Positions 10,227 through 34,116 of a DNA stretch of 39,908 bases are shown here, in pieces. The stretch lies in the IMG/VR virus record IMGVR_UViG_3300030116_006740, positions 1-39,908 of that record; one strand, 5' to 3'. A model generated the notes under the pieces. That model had not been told where the DNA came from. It searched no databases and worked only from the letters and a program-made list of their open reading frames with translations. The stretch comes from a virus. Both the position numbers and the translations under genes were made by a program. The stretch's first letter is position 1, and the number at the start of each line of letters is the position of its first letter.

Positions 10227-10867
10227 TGAAAGACTCAGCGTTACTAGGATTGGCTGGTGTTGCAGGTTGCGGCAAAGATACATTTTTTACCCACCTAAAA
10301 CAAGCCCTTGAAAAAAGGTCTATAACAATTAAAAGATACTCATTTGGCGATGAGTTAAAGTATGAAGTAAACAAATGGACAACCAATCAATACGGCATTG
10401 ACGCAGTTAACTGTGATCGCATCGACAAAGAAAAAATAAGGCCGTTTTTGATAGCACACGGGGTCATAAAAAGAAATAAGACAGAAGGTCAATACTGGAT
10501 AAACAAAACAAAAGAAAGAATTAAAAATGATACTGAGCGACCAGACATAGCTTGTATCACAGATGTTCGTTATAATCAGTACAAAAATGATGAAGCTTCA
10601 TGGATTAAAAATAATGAAGGTATTGTTGTATACATCCAGCGTTTAGTGAAAACAGACGAAGCCGCCGAATTAAGAGTTCCTCTTGAAGCGAAAAATACAG
10701 AAGAGCTTAAAAACGACCCGCTTGTAAAAGATTCCGCAAATTTTATAGCATCAATTAAAGATGTGCATGAATCACTAATCGAAGAAACTGTTACCGAAGA
10801 AATTGAAACATTTCTTGGATGGCTAAAAGAAAATGGGGGAGAGCAGTGGAAAAAATTACTGATGTAG
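10226..10867 (+). CDS. Deoxynucleoside monophosphate kinase (T4 gp1-like)
   Basis: Phosphorylates dNMPs to dNDPs. The 213-residue protein opens with a Walker A loop, LGLAGVAGCGKDTFF (7-21). IRPFLIAHGVIKRNKTEGQYWINK corresponds to the dNMP-binding lid region of T4 gp1, and RPDIACITDVRYNQYKNDEASWI to the conserved 'TDVRYxxE' segment. Neighbours and length fit the family. It complements the deaminase, dUTPase and NrdAB in the nucleotide supply set. The downstream sigma-factor gene starts inside its 3' end. Confidence 0.85.
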   Translation: MKDSALLGLAGVAGCGKDTFFTHLKQALEKRSITIKRYSFGDELKYEVNKWTTNQYGIDAVNCDRIDKEKIRPFLIAHGVIKRNKTEGQYWINKTKERIKNDTERPDIACITDVRYNQYKNDEASWIKNNEGIVVYIQRLVKTDEAAELRVPLEAKNTEELKNDPLVKDSANFIASIKDVHESLIEETVTEEIETFLGWLKENGGEQWKKLLM

Positions 10868-11439
10868 AACTAGTAGCAAAGATACAATTAGAATCCTGCA
10901 ACAACAGTCTCAAAGAGCTAATAAATCGACACTCGGCTCTTTGTGTAGACATATACAAAAAGTATACCCCCGCGCTATGCGCTTCTGGTGTGCCTTTTAA
11001 TGACATTTACGAGGACAAAGACTATATTGTTTACAAATCAGCTTTGTCTTTTAAGCCAGAAAAAAAAGTAAAATTCTCTACGTGGCTAGGCAATCAGGTT
11101 CGATACCATTGTCTTAATGCTATTAATAGTAAAGGCTACTTGATAAATGTCGAAACCAACGATGATTTAGATTTTTTTATAGATCAATCAGACGACAGAA
11201 AAGATGAAGAAAATAAACTAGAAGTGCAATATATATTTTCAATACTAGCTCAACTTAAAGACCCGCGTATAAAAGAGGTTTTTAACCTTAGATATTTTAA
11301 GACTGACAAGAAAAAAATGCCTTGGTCAGAAATAGGGAAGAAGATGAATGTAAGCACACAAACAGCGATTAATTTACATCATCGGGGCTTAGAAATCTTA
11401 AATAAAAAAATGAAATCTAAAAACCCAGACATGATATGA
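10846..11439 (+). CDS. RNA polymerase sigma factor, sigma-70 family, phage type
   Basis: 197 residues from GTG 10846, chosen because GGGGGAGAG lies just upstream; an in-frame ATG at 10819 has no such site. Region 2 is recognisable (KFSTWLGNQVRYHCLNAINSK, the core/-10-binding helix with the typical aromatic FxTW), and region 4 forms the C-terminal helix-turn-helix (MPWSEIGKKMNVSTQTAINLHHRGLEIL). Regions 1 and 3 are reduced, as in T4 gp55-type late sigma factors. A plausible role is to direct host polymerase to the AGTGTAATTA-type boxes found before many genes here; that link is inference. Confidence 0.85.
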   Translation: MEKITDVELVAKIQLESCNNSLKELINRHSALCVDIYKKYTPALCASGVPFNDIYEDKDYIVYKSALSFKPEKKVKFSTWLGNQVRYHCLNAINSKGYLINVETNDDLDFFIDQSDDRKDEENKLEVQYIFSILAQLKDPRIKEVFNLRYFKTDKKKMPWSEIGKKMNVSTQTAINLHHRGLEILNKKMKSKNPDMI

Positions 11440-12584
11440 ACAATAATCATGGAAAAATTTCCCTAAGACCTCTTCTCCATGAAGAAGATGGAAAAAGAGA
11501 AAGCAAAGATACCCTAAATAAAGAAAAAGATTTATCAGGTAGATTTTGTAGCAAGCCATTTGATTACTTTGAGGCTCAAGACCTAGGAGATGGAAAAGTT
11601 TTTGTCTGCTGTCCTACATGGCTAAATGTTGTCGTGGGCAAGTTAACGACACAATCTGTTTCGGAAGCTTTTAATTCCAAGATAAACCAAGAAATAAGAA
11701 AAAGTATTTTAGATGGAAGTTATAAATACTGTAATAAAAAACTATGCCCAGTCATACAAAACGATAGCTTACCCAAAACATCCGAAATAACTGATACGCG
11801 CCTTAGAAAGATAATAGACAACAAACAGATACGCGATTTAACCCCGCTAACTTACAATTTGTGCTACGACCCTTCTTGCAACCTTGCTTGTCCAAGCTGC
11901 CGCATCAATAAAATATACATAACAGAAGGCCCCATTCACAAGAGAAAGATGCTCATACAGCACAAGATAATTAACGAGGCATTCGGTGAACCGCATGATA
12001 GAGAAGTTTTTATTAATGTAACAGGTTCAGGTGATCCATTTGGTTCAAAAATATTTAGAGAGCTATTGTTTAGTATTGATGGTGACAAGTATCCAAATGT
12101 CAAAATAAACCTACAAACAAATGGTGTTATGTTTACCCAAAGCTACTGGGACAAAATGCACAAGATACATAAAAACATAAACAATGTTTTAATATCTTTA
12201 GATTCTTGCCGAGAAGAAACTTATGACATAGTGCGGCGTGGGGGAAATTGGTCTGCGCTCATGAAAAATCTAGAACACACCTCAAAACTTAGGCAGGAAA
12301 ATAAAATTAATTTTCTTAGATTAGATTTTGTAGTACAAAAAACAAACTACAAAGATATGGTTGGCTTTATAGAACTAGGAAAAAAACTTAAAGTTGATCA
12401 GTGTTACTTCTCTTTGGTTAGCGATTGGGGCACTTGGACAGTTGAAGAATATGAAAAACATGCTATTTGGAAACAGACTCATGAAAAATTTAATGACTTT
12501 ATGGATGTCATGAAAGACCCAATCTTTGATGATCCTATTGTAAACTTGGGAAATGTTACGGAGTACAGAAACAATGCAAGATAA
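11436..12584 (+). CDS. Radical SAM protein with N-terminal SPASM-like domain
   Basis: 382 residues. The 4Fe-4S cluster motif CNLACPSC (C148, C152, C155) is followed by VTGSGDPFGSK and INLQTNGVM, the usual radical SAM strand motifs. The N-terminal 110 residues carry a SPASM-like auxiliary-cluster pattern: C38-SKPF, C58-C59-P, and YC-x4-CP (C99, C104). SPASM domains normally follow the SAM barrel, so the order is inverted. SPASM proteins modify peptides, proteins or sugars; with glycosyltransferase and sugar-nucleotide genes downstream, carbohydrate or protein modification is equally possible. ATGA coupling to the sigma factor. Confidence 0.85.
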   Translation: MNNNHGKISLRPLLHEEDGKRESKDTLNKEKDLSGRFCSKPFDYFEAQDLGDGKVFVCCPTWLNVVVGKLTTQSVSEAFNSKINQEIRKSILDGSYKYCNKKLCPVIQNDSLPKTSEITDTRLRKIIDNKQIRDLTPLTYNLCYDPSCNLACPSCRINKIYITEGPIHKRKMLIQHKIINEAFGEPHDREVFINVTGSGDPFGSKIFRELLFSIDGDKYPNVKINLQTNGVMFTQSYWDKMHKIHKNINNVLISLDSCREETYDIVRRGGNWSALMKNLEHTSKLRQENKINFLRLDFVVQKTNYKDMVGFIELGKKLKVDQCYFSLVSDWGTWTVEEYEKHAIWKQTHEKFNDFMDVMKDPIFDDPIVNLGNVTEYRNNAR

Positions 12585-16269: not shown

Positions 16270-16935
16270 ATGGAAGATACATTTACAGCTATAATTCCTG
16301 TACGCAAAGGATCAGAAAGGGTTGTTAATAAAAACATTAGACCCTTTGGTGACTCTTCTTTGTTGGAATTAAAAATATCTACCCTGAAGAAAATAGATCA
16401 TATAGGTGATATTGTTGTAAACTCTGATTGCGACACCATGTTGGGAATTGCTAAAGACATGGGGGTTTCGACGCACAAAAGAGAAGGCTATTATGCCAGT
16501 TCAAAAGTTAATAATAGTGAGTATTTTGAGCACGTTGCATCAAACACCGATGCTAAGTGGATAATGTACGCACCTGTTACCTGCCCTTTTATTAAGGTCG
16601 CAACTTATAACCATGCAATACAAAAATTTTTCGACAACAAAGAATACGATAGTTTGGCATCGACTTTCTCTGTAAAGCACCATATGTGGCTAGATGGAAA
16701 ACCAATTAATTATGATCCAAGCAATTCCCCAAACAGTCAAGACTTGCCAGATATACAGGCAATAAGCTATGGTATATCCATAATATCAAAAGAGTTAATG
16801 ATTAAACGCAGAAACGTGGTGGGTTATAAACCGTTGCTTTACCCTCTTAGCGAGGTCGAGGCTGTTGACATAGACACTGAGTTGGAATTTGAATTTGCAG
16901 AATACATTTTTGGGAAAGTAGCTCAATTTGGATAG
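16270..16935 (+). CDS. Acylneuraminate-type cytidylyltransferase (NeuA/KdsB-like)
   Basis: 221 residues. The N-terminus TAIIPVRKGSERVVNKNIRPF is the CTP-binding loop of CMP-sugar synthetases. YAPVTCPFIK replaces the usual QPTSPLR, and DIDTELEFEFAEYIF is the conserved C-terminal acidic metal site (DID). It would activate a sialic-, legionaminic- or KDO-like nonulosonate as a CMP-sugar, although no nonulosonate synthase (NeuB) is visible here. Its last eight codons lie inside the tRNA-Arg gene. Confidence 0.87.
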   Translation: MEDTFTAIIPVRKGSERVVNKNIRPFGDSSLLELKISTLKKIDHIGDIVVNSDCDTMLGIAKDMGVSTHKREGYYASSKVNNSEYFEHVASNTDAKWIMYAPVTCPFIKVATYNHAIQKFFDNKEYDSLASTFSVKHHMWLDGKPINYDPSNSPNSQDLPDIQAISYGISIISKELMIKRRNVVGYKPLLYPLSEVEAVDIDTELEFEFAEYIFGKVAQFG

Positions 16936-16989
16936 AGCATCTGCCTTCTAAGCAGAGGGTTGTGGGTTCGAGTCCCACCTTTCCTGCCA
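16912..16989 (+). tRNA. tRNA-Arg (anticodon UCU)
   Basis: A full cloverleaf: acceptor GGGAAAG / CTTTCCT (one G-U at the first pair), D-arm GCTC...GAGC, anticodon stem TCTGC / GCAGA with loop CTTCTAA (anticodon TCT), five-base variable loop, T-arm GTGGG TTCGAGT CCCAC, discriminator G and encoded CCA. It reads AGA/AGG codons. The 5' 24 nt overlap the 3' end of the NeuA-like gene. Confidence 0.96.
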
Positions 16990-28916: not shown

Positions 28917-31388
28917 ATGTCAAAAAACGAGATTCAAGTTAAAAAGAGAAACGGTAGACTTCAAAAACTAGACATAAATAAAATCAATATCTGTGCCGAA
29001 AGAGCATGTGAAGACATTGATAATGTTTCTCCTAGTGAGGTTGTATTAGATGCCCATGTTCAGCTTTACGATAAAATCACTACCAAAGAAATAGATAAGG
29101 CACTCATCATGAGTGCAAGGCAGAAAATCGAAAAAGAATCAAACTACTCATATGTAGCATCAAAGCTTCTTTTGTTTAATATCCATAAAGAGGTTTTTGG
29201 AGAGAGTCGCGACAGTGACGTTTTCGAGCATCAGTACAAACTTTCTTTTGTAAGAAATATCAAATTACTTGTTAAAGAAAAAGTCTTAAATAAAGAACTT
29301 TTAAACTTTGATTTAAAAAAGCTGTCTGAAGCGATGGTTTTGGATAGAGATTTTAAATTTAAGTATTTAGGTCTACAAATTTTATATGATCGCTATTTTC
29401 ATCACCTCGATGAAAGGCGTTTAGAAACTCCACAGGCATTTTGGATGCGTGTGGCAATGGGGCTTGCATTAAATGAAAAAAATAAAGAAGAAAGAGCGAT
29501 TGAGTTTTACAACGTGCTTTCTCAGTTTCATTTATGCTGTTCAACTCCTACTCTGTTTAATAGTGGCAGTACCCATAGTCAGCTTTCTAGTTGTTACCTT
29601 AATACTTTCGATGATTCCATTGATGGTATATTTGAAGGTCTTTGGCAAGAAGCCCGAAAAAGTAAATTTGCTGGAGGTCTCGGTTTCGATGTTACTAACT
29701 TCCGCGCTGCTAATTCTTATGTTAAAGGCACTAATGGAAAATCTTCTGGGTTAATTCCGTGGCTTAAAATCTATAATGATACGCTTGTAGCAGTTGACCA
29801 AGGGGGTAAAAGGCCCGGTGCTGGCTGTGCATACCTAGAGCCTTGGCATTTAGATATTGAAGACTTTCTTGATCTTAAAAAGAATACGGGCGACGAAAGA
29901 CGCCGTTGCCATGACATGAATACAGCCAATTGGCTTCCTTCTTTGTTTCTTAAAAAGGTTTTAGCTAATGAGGATTGGTATTTGTTTTCTCCATCTGATG
30001 TGCGCGACCTACATGAATTGTATGCACAAGACTTTGATAAGAGATACAAAAAATACTGCAAGATGGCTGATGATGGCAAAATTCAAAACTTTAGAATTAT
30101 AAAAGCTAAAGACCTTTGGAAAAAAATGCTTAGGGTACTTTTTGAAACTGGTCATCCTTGGATGACTTTTAAAGATAATGCCAATCTAAGGTACTCTAAT
30201 GGTCATGAGGGCGTAGTGCATAGCTCTAATCTCTGCACAGAAATCTTTTTGCACACGAAACCTTCAAAGTTTGATGAAGGTGAAAAAACTGAAGTTGGAG
30301 AAACTGCCGTATGCAATCTAAGCTCCGTCAATCTCAAAGAACACATAAAAGAAGATGGTAATTTAGATTTTAAAATGCTTGCAAAAACCATAGCAACGCA
30401 AATGCGTATGTTGGATAATGTAATTGATTTAAATTTTTATCCAACCAAAGAAGCTGAAAAAGCCAACATGAGTCATCGACCTGTTGGTGCGGGAACTATG
30501 GGGTGGGCAGATGTTTTTCATTCTTATAAAGTTAATTTTTCTAGCGATGATGCTATTAAATTTTCTGATGAGCTTTATGAGTTTATCTCATATCATTGTA
30601 TTTTAAATTCTAGCAAAATTGCTAAAGAAAAAGGAACATATTCAACTTATGATGGCTCTCTTTGGAGTCAGGACATTTTGCCTATTGATACTTATAAAAA
30701 CCTTATGGAATACTTGGGTGAAAAACCCTTGGTTCACAGGGGTAAAAAGTTTTGCCCCGAATTAGATTGGAAAACACTTAGAACCCACATAAAAGATCAT
30801 GGAATGCGTAATAGTAATACTATGGCAATTGCTCCCACTGCTACCATATCATATATTCAGGGTTGCTCGCCTTGTATTGAGCCAGATTTTTCTGTGCTTT
30901 TTGTATATGAAAATAAAAGTGGTAATCTTACAATCATTAACGAGTGGTTTATTAAAGAATGTAAGGAAAGAGGGCTTTGGAACCAAGGCATGATTGATGC
31001 CATAAAGGCCGTAGATGGCGATCTGAGCCGTTTAAATGGCGATATCCCCCCAGACCTCAAGGAAAGGTTCTGTACGGCATTTGACCACGATCAATTCAGG
31101 CTGGTTGACGGTGCTGCCGCCAAGCAAAAATGGATTGATATGGGGCAATCTTTGAATTTATTTAATAAATCTACCTCTTTAAAATATTTGCATGATTTAT
31201 ATATCCATGCTATGAATAGAGGGTTAAAAAGCACATACTATTTAAGGAACAGAAGTGCGAGCGAAATTGAGAAATCGACTCAGGGTGGTGGTAACTCTGA
31301 TAATACTAACCCAAGTGGTGATAATGATAGCGGGTCTTCTCCTAAAGCTTGCTCGATCTTAGACCCAACTTGTGAAAGTTGTCAATAA
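28917..31388 (+). CDS. nrdA: Ribonucleotide reductase class I, alpha subunit (NrdA)
   Basis: 823 residues, full-length and without an intein. An ATP-cone domain (about 1-95, IQVKKRNGRLQKLDINKI at its start) implies dATP/ATP allosteric control. Catalytic residues are intact: C226 in LSSCYLN and C466 in AVCNLSS (redox pair), the radical triad N438-L-C440-T-E442, and the radical-transfer tyrosine pair in LKSTYYLRN. The C-terminal CESCQ is the redox-active tail that accepts electrons from a thioredoxin or glutaredoxin, none of which is in this window. A Shine-Dalgarno-like AAGG precedes the ATG. It is followed by nrdB with a promoter-like box between them. Confidence 0.97.
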   Translation: MSKNEIQVKKRNGRLQKLDINKINICAERACEDIDNVSPSEVVLDAHVQLYDKITTKEIDKALIMSARQKIEKESNYSYVASKLLLFNIHKEVFGESRDSDVFEHQYKLSFVRNIKLLVKEKVLNKELLNFDLKKLSEAMVLDRDFKFKYLGLQILYDRYFHHLDERRLETPQAFWMRVAMGLALNEKNKEERAIEFYNVLSQFHLCCSTPTLFNSGSTHSQLSSCYLNTFDDSIDGIFEGLWQEARKSKFAGGLGFDVTNFRAANSYVKGTNGKSSGLIPWLKIYNDTLVAVDQGGKRPGAGCAYLEPWHLDIEDFLDLKKNTGDERRRCHDMNTANWLPSLFLKKVLANEDWYLFSPSDVRDLHELYAQDFDKRYKKYCKMADDGKIQNFRIIKAKDLWKKMLRVLFETGHPWMTFKDNANLRYSNGHEGVVHSSNLCTEIFLHTKPSKFDEGEKTEVGETAVCNLSSVNLKEHIKEDGNLDFKMLAKTIATQMRMLDNVIDLNFYPTKEAEKANMSHRPVGAGTMGWADVFHSYKVNFSSDDAIKFSDELYEFISYHCILNSSKIAKEKGTYSTYDGSLWSQDILPIDTYKNLMEYLGEKPLVHRGKKFCPELDWKTLRTHIKDHGMRNSNTMAIAPTATISYIQGCSPCIEPDFSVLFVYENKSGNLTIINEWFIKECKERGLWNQGMIDAIKAVDGDLSRLNGDIPPDLKERFCTAFDHDQFRLVDGAAAKQKWIDMGQSLNLFNKSTSLKYLHDLYIHAMNRGLKSTYYLRNRSASEIEKSTQGGGNSDNTNPSGDNDSGSSPKACSILDPTCESCQ

Positions 31389-31413: not shown

Positions 31414-32424
31414 ATGAGTAAGAGTGGATTATTATTGGATGAGAATGTAGCGGGTGTAAATCAAATTTTACCCCACAAACATGAATTTGCTTGGGATTTG
31501 TTTCTAAAAGGCGTAGCAAATAATTGGTCGCCAGCCGAAATAAACATGAGCGATGACGTAGACCAGTGGAAAAATGGAACTTTAAGCAAAGATGAAAAAT
31601 TACTCGTTAAAAGATGCCTTGGGTTTTTTGCTGGAAGTGAGTCCTTGGTTGGCAATAATTTACTTCTTAATGTCGCGAAGTGGATAACGGACGCTGAATG
31701 CGGCCAATACATCATGCGGCAAGCATATGAGGAGTCTTTGCACAACTGGACTGTTGTAACGTGCTGTGATTCTTTTTCATTAAAAGTTGGTGAGGTTTAT
31801 GAAGCTTATTTAAACATTCCTTCTATTAAAGCCAAAGACGACTTCCTGATGCAAATTACAACTGATATTAATCGTCAGGATTTTTCTACAAAAAGCACAG
31901 AGGGAAAAAGAGAATTTTTAAGAAATTTAATTACATATTATATTGTTTGTGAAGGTACATTTTTCTTCAGTGGCTTTGCTATGCTTTTGGCCCTAGGTCG
32001 GCAAAATAAGCTGCCCGGACTTTCTGACCAAATTAGGTATACCCTCCGAGACGAGAGTCTACATATCCAATTTGGTACGTATTTAATAAATACGATTAAA
32101 GAACAATATCCATCGGTGTGGACAAAAAAATTCGAGGAAGAAACTGTTGAGCACATCAAAAAAGCTGTTGAACTTGAAATAGCTTATGCTCATGACGTTC
32201 TTCCACGAGGAATTCTTGGCTTAAATGCTGAGATGTTTGTCGATTACATGCAATACATTGGTAATCGGCGTCTTGAAGGCATTGGCATCGACTTCCGTTT
32301 TGACAGCGATCAGAACCCATTTCCGTGGCTTGCTGAAGTTGTTGACACGGGAGCGATGACCAATTTCTTTGAAAGAAAAGTTAAAGATTACCAAAGCTCT
32401 GGAGTTCTTGAAGATGACTTCTAA
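31414..32424 (+). CDS. nrdB: Ribonucleotide reductase class I, beta subunit (NrdB), radical Tyr replaced by Val
   Basis: 336 residues, strongly like the chlamydial (class Ic) R2 proteins in FLRNLITYYIVCEGTFFF, LALGRQNKLPGLSDQ, PRGILGLNAEMF and NPFPWLAEV. All six metal ligands are present: E76 (Glu rather than Asp, as in class Ic), E107, H110, E180, E214 and H217. The residue four after H110, normally the radical Tyr, is Val (V114, codon 31753-31755); Chlamydia has Phe. The protein therefore presumably uses a metal-based oxidant such as a Mn/Fe centre instead of a tyrosyl radical. The metal choice is inference. TATATA and TATAAG boxes lie just upstream. Confidence 0.96.
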   Translation: MSKSGLLLDENVAGVNQILPHKHEFAWDLFLKGVANNWSPAEINMSDDVDQWKNGTLSKDEKLLVKRCLGFFAGSESLVGNNLLLNVAKWITDAECGQYIMRQAYEESLHNWTVVTCCDSFSLKVGEVYEAYLNIPSIKAKDDFLMQITTDINRQDFSTKSTEGKREFLRNLITYYIVCEGTFFFSGFAMLLALGRQNKLPGLSDQIRYTLRDESLHIQFGTYLINTIKEQYPSVWTKKFEEETVEHIKKAVELEIAYAHDVLPRGILGLNAEMFVDYMQYIGNRRLEGIGIDFRFDSDQNPFPWLAEVVDTGAMTNFFERKVKDYQSSGVLEDDF

Positions 32425-33243: not shown

Positions 33244-33651
33244 GGGAGCGTACTGGTTTCGATTTAGGGCCTTACGCAAGATTGCAAGTAGAGGATGATG
33301 GTTGGCCTCTTTAAAAATCCGTCAAGGCTATTCAACTGCCAAAAATAATGTTGATATGGCCCCTTCTCTGGCCGAAGCTGATGCGATTCTCGCTAAGTTC
33401 GGTTGGGCTGAAGAGGCTGCTGTAGCTGCGTAAGCTACCCGTCCTACTCTGGATGCTCGTTAAGGAGCTAGGGCGTCGATAACGGGCAAAAAAAACTAGG
33501 AAGGGTGAGGAGTCTAGTATAAATAAAGTGCCTCCAGCCTCGTGTGTAGTTGTCAGTGACGAAGCGCGGGACAAGTAACACTGACTAAGCTTGTAGTATA
33601 TCTGAGCAGATGGTTTTAAAGACGCGGGTTCGACTCCCGCCGCTTCCACCA
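33244..33651 (+). ncRNA. ssrA: Transfer-messenger RNA (tmRNA), one-piece
   Basis: 408 nt. The tRNA-like part is formed by the 5' GGGAGCG and 3' CGCTTCC (one G-U) with discriminator A and encoded CCA (33649-33651). The 5' end shows the invariant GGTTTCGA, and the 3' half has a T-arm CGGGTTCGACTCCCG. The mRNA-like domain resumes at GCC 33338 and ends at TAA 33431-33433. The tag is about 31 residues, beginning AKNNVD and ending AEEAAVAA; its hydrophobic C-terminus (AVAA) fits ClpXP-type degradation signals. Tags of about 10-20 residues are usual. It rescues stalled ribosomes and tags products; the gene presumably supports translation late in infection. Confidence 0.95.
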
Positions 33652-33654
33652 TTT

Positions 33655-34116
33655 TCATTGTAGCTGGCCTACGATTTCATCATTCCAGACCAAACCAAAC
33701 CAAGTATCATCTCGATTATCACCTATTACCCAGCATTGGCCCTCTTGAACTATTTCTGGTTCCCAAGTTGAACCTTCGCTTATATTTATGTGGCTAAATT
33801 CATCAATATATAATTTATTGTTTTTAAATATGTAGCCATTTACAATCTGAATTACATCGCCCGGAACCCCTATTACCCTTTTTATTAAAAAGTCTTCTTC
33901 TTCATAGTCCCAAAAGACCACCACATCGCCCTCTCTGGGTTCTGAAAAATCATAAGAAAGTTTATTAACTAATACAATATCAAAATTATCCTGAGAAGGA
34001 TTCATAGAATCCCCCACAACAATAAAAAACTTATAACCAAAGGTAAAAATGCAGACAAATATAATAAAAAGAATTAATAGTCTTATATTTTTTAAAATTT
34101 TTTTGTACACGTTCAT
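33655..34116 (-). CDS. lepB: Signal peptidase I (LepB-like)
   Basis: 153 residues. One N-terminal membrane anchor (LLILFIIFVCIFTFGYKFFI, about 13-32) is followed by the Ser/Lys catalytic dyad: S37 in VVGDSMNPS and K79 in FLIKRVIGVPGD. The third signature GDNRDDTWFG is near the C-terminus. The enzyme is much shorter than E. coli LepB (324 residues) and about the size of short bacterial SipS-type enzymes. It would cleave signal peptides at the outer face of the membrane. It converges on the tmRNA, with stop and tmRNA 3' end 3 nt apart. Phage-encoded signal peptidases are rare; the secreted protease at 20411 is a candidate substrate. Confidence 0.9.
   Translation of the reverse strand: MNVYKKILKNIRLLILFIIFVCIFTFGYKFFIVVGDSMNPSQDNFDIVLVNKLSYDFSEPREGDVVVFWDYEEEDFLIKRVIGVPGDVIQIVNGYIFKNNKLYIDEFSHINISEGSTWEPEIVQEGQCWVIGDNRDDTWFGLVWNDEIVGQLQ

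Follow-up and report, generated by a model that had tools for sequence, protein, structure and literature searches.

In the class Ic R2 protein of Chlamydia trachomatis (R2c, NrdBzc), O2 reacts with a Mn/Fe pair, an electron arrives by way of Y222, which mediates its injection, and W51, which has an electron-transfer role, and Mn(IV)/Fe(III) then acts as the oxidant (PMC4118035). R2c proteins with Leu, Ile, or Val have also been noted (PMC3824934, citing Hogbom 2010), and class Ic has been assigned by Phe, Leu, or Val (PMC6370689). A bioRxiv preprint of February 2026 describes, in the part of its text available to us, a marine viral "subclass Ic-like" clade of 269 NrdA sequences from GOV 2.0 that are closest to NrdAz and whose NrdB proteins carry isoleucine or valine at the tyrosine site (PMC12918982). 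The same part counts only Phe/Leu proteins as Ic, sets the Ile/Val sequences apart as Ic-like, and leaves open whether their metals are mixed, of another kind, or absent. The locus described here fits that clade by description, as a viral NrdAB pair near NrdAz with Ile/Val in place of Tyr. Residue and phage clade are therefore already known and are not a discovery. What is new is the coupling of the residue to Asp or Glu as ligand 1, the finding that neither the ligands nor the transfer path vary, a tree position on the class Ic side, and the remodelling of the pocket; the available part of the preprint does not describe the ligands, how ligand 1 varies with the site, the pocket, or a tree of beta subunits.

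The gene pair lies in a 39.9-kb IMG/VR virus record (the window, the whole stretch of DNA that was analyzed), and the phage that carried it was probably marine. On the + strand, nrdA (28917..31388) encodes an 823-aa catalytic subunit with one ATP-cone, and nrdB (31414..32424), which starts 25 bases past the end of nrdA, encodes a 336-aa class Ic-like radical-generating subunit. NrdB matches NCBIfam NF005550 (429 bits, cut-off 309) and Pfam PF00268; NrdA matches NF005544 (1058.8 bits, cut-off 965) as well as PF02867, PF00317, and PF03477. C226, N438, C440, E442, C466, Y774, and Y775 are intact in all 70 NrdA sequences compared (window plus 69 relatives), and the C819/C822 pair is intact wherever the C terminus is present. 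No INPHARED record exceeded 44% identity. The nearest match there is labeled as an Acinetobacter phage and carries an Asp/Tyr NrdB. In this locus (L082, CAKLQH020000007.1, labeled Acinetobacter phage MD-2021a), rstAB, LysR, and TetR genes surround nrdAB, and the region looks like bacterial chromosome; the match was left out of the phage evidence.

Several other features of the window deserve mention in their own right. A tmRNA (33244-33651, +; Rfam RF00023, 128 bits) is predicted to encode a tag, AKNNVDMAPSLAEADAILAKFGWAEEAAVAA, that is unusually long at 31 residues; the tmRNA adjoins a signal peptidase I-like gene (33655-34116, −; PF10502, 88 bits). A deoxyhypusine synthase-like gene (PF01916; 21967-22941, −) adjoins a gene of the arginase/agmatinase family (PF00491; 22938-23765, −), a polyamine-type pair that is unexpected in a phage. 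A radical SAM/SPASM protein (11436-12584, +) is encoded amid many glycosyltransferase and nucleotide-sugar genes, a possible phage sigma factor (10819-11439, +) gave weak matches to sigma-70 regions 2 and 4 just below the cut-offs, and there is a tRNA-Arg gene (anticodon tct; 16912-16989, +). As to the host, psbA was not found in 12 phage records. A search with T4 gp23 found no match in the phage records and none in the control genomes either, so it was uninformative.

Residues 7-330 of NrdB aligned to C. trachomatis R2 (1syy) with an E value of 1.3e-106 (phmmer, PDB chains). The segments EESLHNWTV and EEAVHTHTF pair without a gap, placing V114 (GTT codon, 31753..31755; this and the following coordinates are on the + strand) opposite Phe127 at the radical-tyrosine position. 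The ligands are Glu76 (ligand 1, 31639..31641), Glu107 and His110 (31732..31743), Glu180 (31951..31953), and Glu214 and His217 (32053..32064). Along the electron-transfer path, the alignment equates Trp38 (31525..31527) with chlamydial W51 and Tyr209 (32038..32040) with Y222; the C-terminal Tyr326 (32389..32391), common to R2c, serves intersubunit radical transfer. The initial annotation had reported from the window alone that the radical tyrosine is replaced by Val while all six ligands are kept, and both statements were borne out. The interval it gave, 31651-31790, spans residues 80-126, with ligand E76 just outside. It had also proposed an alignment against chlamydial and phage R2 sets as a check, and in that alignment no neighboring tyrosine can enter the site; gapless pairing rules out a tyrosine in an adjacent register.

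Scanning the viral collection yielded 139 further distinct phage NrdB proteins, or 140 with the window; the 80 compared directly share 74-94% identity with the window protein. Val occupies position 114 in 111 of the 140 and Ile in 29; none has Tyr or Phe. The nine residues from H110 occur in only seven forms across the 140 phages (HNWTVVTCC, HNLTVVYIC, and close variants); the Tyr of some forms sits two residues past site 114, where C. trachomatis R2 also has a Tyr besides F127. All six ligands, with Glu as ligand 1, are invariant in the 140 phages, as are second-sphere E106 and D213, Y209 and Y326 of the transfer path, and F184; W38 is invariant wherever it is present. Codon 114 draws on every one of the four Val and three Ile codons, and although 49 of the 140 codons (GTT, GTC, ATT, or ATC) are one base from Phe, Phe never occurs. 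Between the window and one relative (L002), pS is 0.76 and pN 0.037, with synonymous sites near saturation and few amino acid changes. This reading is based on raw pS and pN, since synonymous saturation limited the dN/dS median to four pairs. These patterns indicate that phage NrdB evolves under purifying selection. The codon spread, the absence of Phe, and the scarcity of amino acid changes against saturated synonymous differences imply that Val or Ile is kept in an active gene; the uniform occurrence of Val or Ile, the codon spread, and pS/pN together rule out sequencing error, chance, or a lone mutation.

Among cellular relatives, site 114 proved to be coupled to ligand 1. The cellular sample consisted of NF005550 members and relatives, with seven doubly counted seed loci removed, and in its roughly 165 distinct loci we found Asp with Tyr in 58, Glu with Phe in 106, Glu with Leu in one, and no mixed combination. 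Val or Ile occurred at the site in none of these loci, in a sampling that is nonexhaustive and favors close relatives and high-scoring matches. Class Ia NrdBza proteins, found in many proteobacteria and in Pseudomonas phage vB_PpuM-Peetri, belong to the same NCBIfam family, share the transfer path, and show 43-48% identity, but have Asp as ligand 1 and the radical tyrosine in every sampled case. The phage proteins do not fit class Ia, as the radical tyrosine is absent from the site. Class Ie, which is metal free, loses three carboxylate ligands, and keeps a modified tyrosine, is also excluded, with all ligands present and no tyrosine; that all six ligands are there without variation speaks against an enzyme working free of metal. 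The Cyano SP/class O ferritin-like beta of cyanophages P-SSP7 and S-CBP4 is likewise phage encoded, without a radical tyrosine, and has Glu as ligand 1, but it is much shorter, with Asp before ligand 2 and Phe/Leu at the site, and belongs to a separate lineage (PMC6370689, PMC9531940).

We built a tree without columns 76 and 114 and left it unrooted. The phages form a single clade (support 100/100). A branch with 100/97 support has on one side the phages and the main class Ic group (Chlamydiota, Verrucomicrobiota, Planctomycetota, Chloroflexota, TM6, and several candidate-phylum genomes), a placement to be read with the long phage stem and the lack of a root in mind. On the other side are the Asp/Tyr proteins and, among them, a second Glu/Phe group from Saccharopolyspora, Nocardiopsis, Guyparkeria, and Halothiobacillus (L130, L140, L141, and L160). 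This second group may mean that the class Ic state arose more than once, independently, which the data do not force: constraining all Glu/non-Tyr sequences together gave a log likelihood better by 0.28, and since the grouping carries no likelihood cost, one origin and two are both possible. Placing the phages in a clade with the Asp/Tyr proteins was worse by 9 log units and not rejected (AU P = 0.25). The exact attachment of the phages is uncertain because of their long stem, and rooting with distant phage NrdB outgroups failed through long branches.

We consider it probable that nrdAB specifies a functional, aerobic class Ic-type reductase. Its oxidant would be centered on the metals, which we infer from the chlamydial template to be most likely Mn(IV)/Fe(III). 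In such an enzyme, the reduced Mn/Fe pair would react with O2 to give Mn(IV)/Fe(IV), which would accept an electron through Y209 and W38 and so become Mn(IV)/Fe(III). This center, and not a tyrosyl radical, would be the reversible oxidant of the NrdA cysteine. The phage would thereby obtain deoxynucleotides from an enzyme lacking a stable tyrosyl radical open to scavenging. The characters of class Ic are present throughout the phage set: a redox-inert residue replaces the radical tyrosine, Glu is ligand 1 in the pattern E,E,H,E,E,H with second-sphere Glu/Asp, and the Y222 equivalent and C-terminal tyrosine are kept. With E106 and D213, the phage pattern is that of the C. trachomatis row in Table 3 of PMC6370689. 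The transfer path is intact from W38, D213, Y209, and Y326 of NrdB to Y774/Y775 of NrdA. NrdI was not found in 12 phage records, which may be incomplete and whose hosts could supply it; its absence from these records suits activation by O2. The class Ic-like reading of the initial annotation is thus well supported by the joint change of ligand 1 and loss of Tyr, by Y209 and Y326, by the resemblance to chlamydial R2c structures, and by the side of the tree on which the phages fall. Against it, no sequence feature gives the identity of the metals, Val/Ile differs from the Phe/Leu of characterized class Ic proteins, and the pocket differs too (I207, T210, C179). The first-sphere ligand set, moreover, is also found in class Id (PMC6370689).

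A tyrosine-independent homodinuclear enzyme, with Mn2(IV,III) as in class Id or with Fe2 and the aliphatic residue as an inert filler, strikes us as unlikely. Class Id likewise has Glu as ligand 1 and leaves its tyrosine unused (PMC6370689), and the part of the preprint available to us leaves the cofactor of the Ic-like clade open (PMC12918982). However, ligand 2 is preceded by Glu, the Ic residue, and not by Cys as in the class Id protein of Flavobacterium johnsoniae, and Y209 is kept as in R2c. An AlphaFold2 model of NrdB (mean pLDDT 83.8, pTM 0.83; low confidence at 311-320 and 330-336) speaks against a homodinuclear enzyme as well: in a fold search, thirteen C. trachomatis R2c chains ranked 1-13 with about 50% identity, followed by 6y2n, ahead of other R2 groups, while F. 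johnsoniae class Id came far lower with 22% identity. Class Id itself was set aside, with no Tyr at 114 and Glu106 in place of the Cys before ligand 2 (F. johnsoniae features from PMC6370689).

Against this likeness to R2c, which extends to the ligands, with Glu in first place, to the second-sphere Glu/Asp, the W51 and Y222 equivalents, and the C-terminal Tyr, the phage proteins differ in having Val/Ile for Phe127, I207 and T210 at the equivalents of Y220 and I223, and the phage-specific residues C68, C179, Y223, H21, and H23; V115 is also common to the phages and unlike Chlamydia. Ile207 and Thr210 (32032..32043, +) stand at positions that we take to correspond to I231 and I234 of E. coli R2, part of the tyrosine pocket. 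At residue 207 the phages have Ile (Val in one), where most class Ic cells have Phe or Tyr; at residue 210 they have Thr, where the class Ic cells sampled have Ile apart from one with Val. The phage pocket seems to be repacked around a small residue. A tentative extension, which we regard as rather improbable, would make the Val/Ile phage clade a separate subclass, its remodeled pocket (V/I114, I207, T210, C179, and Y223) supporting an oxidant or metal need unlike that of chlamydial R2c; such a subclass could, for example, be tuned to iron-poor seawater.

Tyr223 (32080-32082, +) is invariant in the 140 phage proteins, whereas the cellular relatives sampled have Asp or Glu there; C179, present in 137 of 140, adjoins ligand E180. 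Both bear on the idea that the radical resides on another phage-specific residue near the metals, such as Y223, Y/W176, or C179, for which we see very little chance. Judged by its helix position relative to H217, Y223 should point away from the tyrosine pocket, and residue 176 is not special, being Tyr in class Ic cells too and Trp in half of the phages. We know of no precedent for a radical on such an alternative residue. That NrdB generates no radical at all, whether as a beta-prime partner without activity, a gene in decay, or an oxidase of the R2lox type, is barely credible: the radical tyrosine is gone, as it is in R2lox, also a Mn/Fe ferritin-like protein, but a complete NrdA adjoins, amino acid constraint is strong, each of 19 long phage records (62-211 kb) has exactly one NrdB, which rules out the beta-prime partner in those records, and R2lox, not a ribonucleotide reductase subunit, is excluded because it lacks the C-terminal Tyr and F184 (Ala at the chlamydial F197 position; PMC3824934, PMC4118035) that are invariant here as Y326 and F184, and because its models score far under their cut-offs (best 67.6 vs. 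194).

Why a class Ic-like phage enzyme lacks the tyrosine is a separate question. Insensitivity to nitric oxide, which the initial annotation raised as a way past radical-scavenging defenses, is not a new idea: it was proposed in 2019 for the tyrosine-less NrdB of cyanophage P-SSP7 (PMC6370689) and has also been published for C. trachomatis R2 (PMC4118035). For the phages studied here, it seems doubtful that the main reason for losing the tyrosine was evasion of nitric oxide or other radical scavengers that a host produces in defense: no nitric oxide-related gene was noticed in the window, and metal supply or class Ic ancestry accounts for the residue equally well. Adaptation to the metals on offer is no less plausible; in the available part of the preprint, the Ic-like group is anticorrelated with iron, and elsewhere no single-metal pattern is said to explain it (PMC12918982).

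The coupling of Asp with Tyr and of Glu with non-Tyr residues amounts to a simple sequence rule for telling class Ia from class Ic within this NrdB family. Class Ic biochemistry rests mainly on Chlamydia, and the phage family offers independent proteins. They could be used to ask whether the Mn/Fe oxidant depends on Phe or also works beside small aliphatic residues, and whether it is metal supply or radical scavengers to which reductases without the tyrosine respond.
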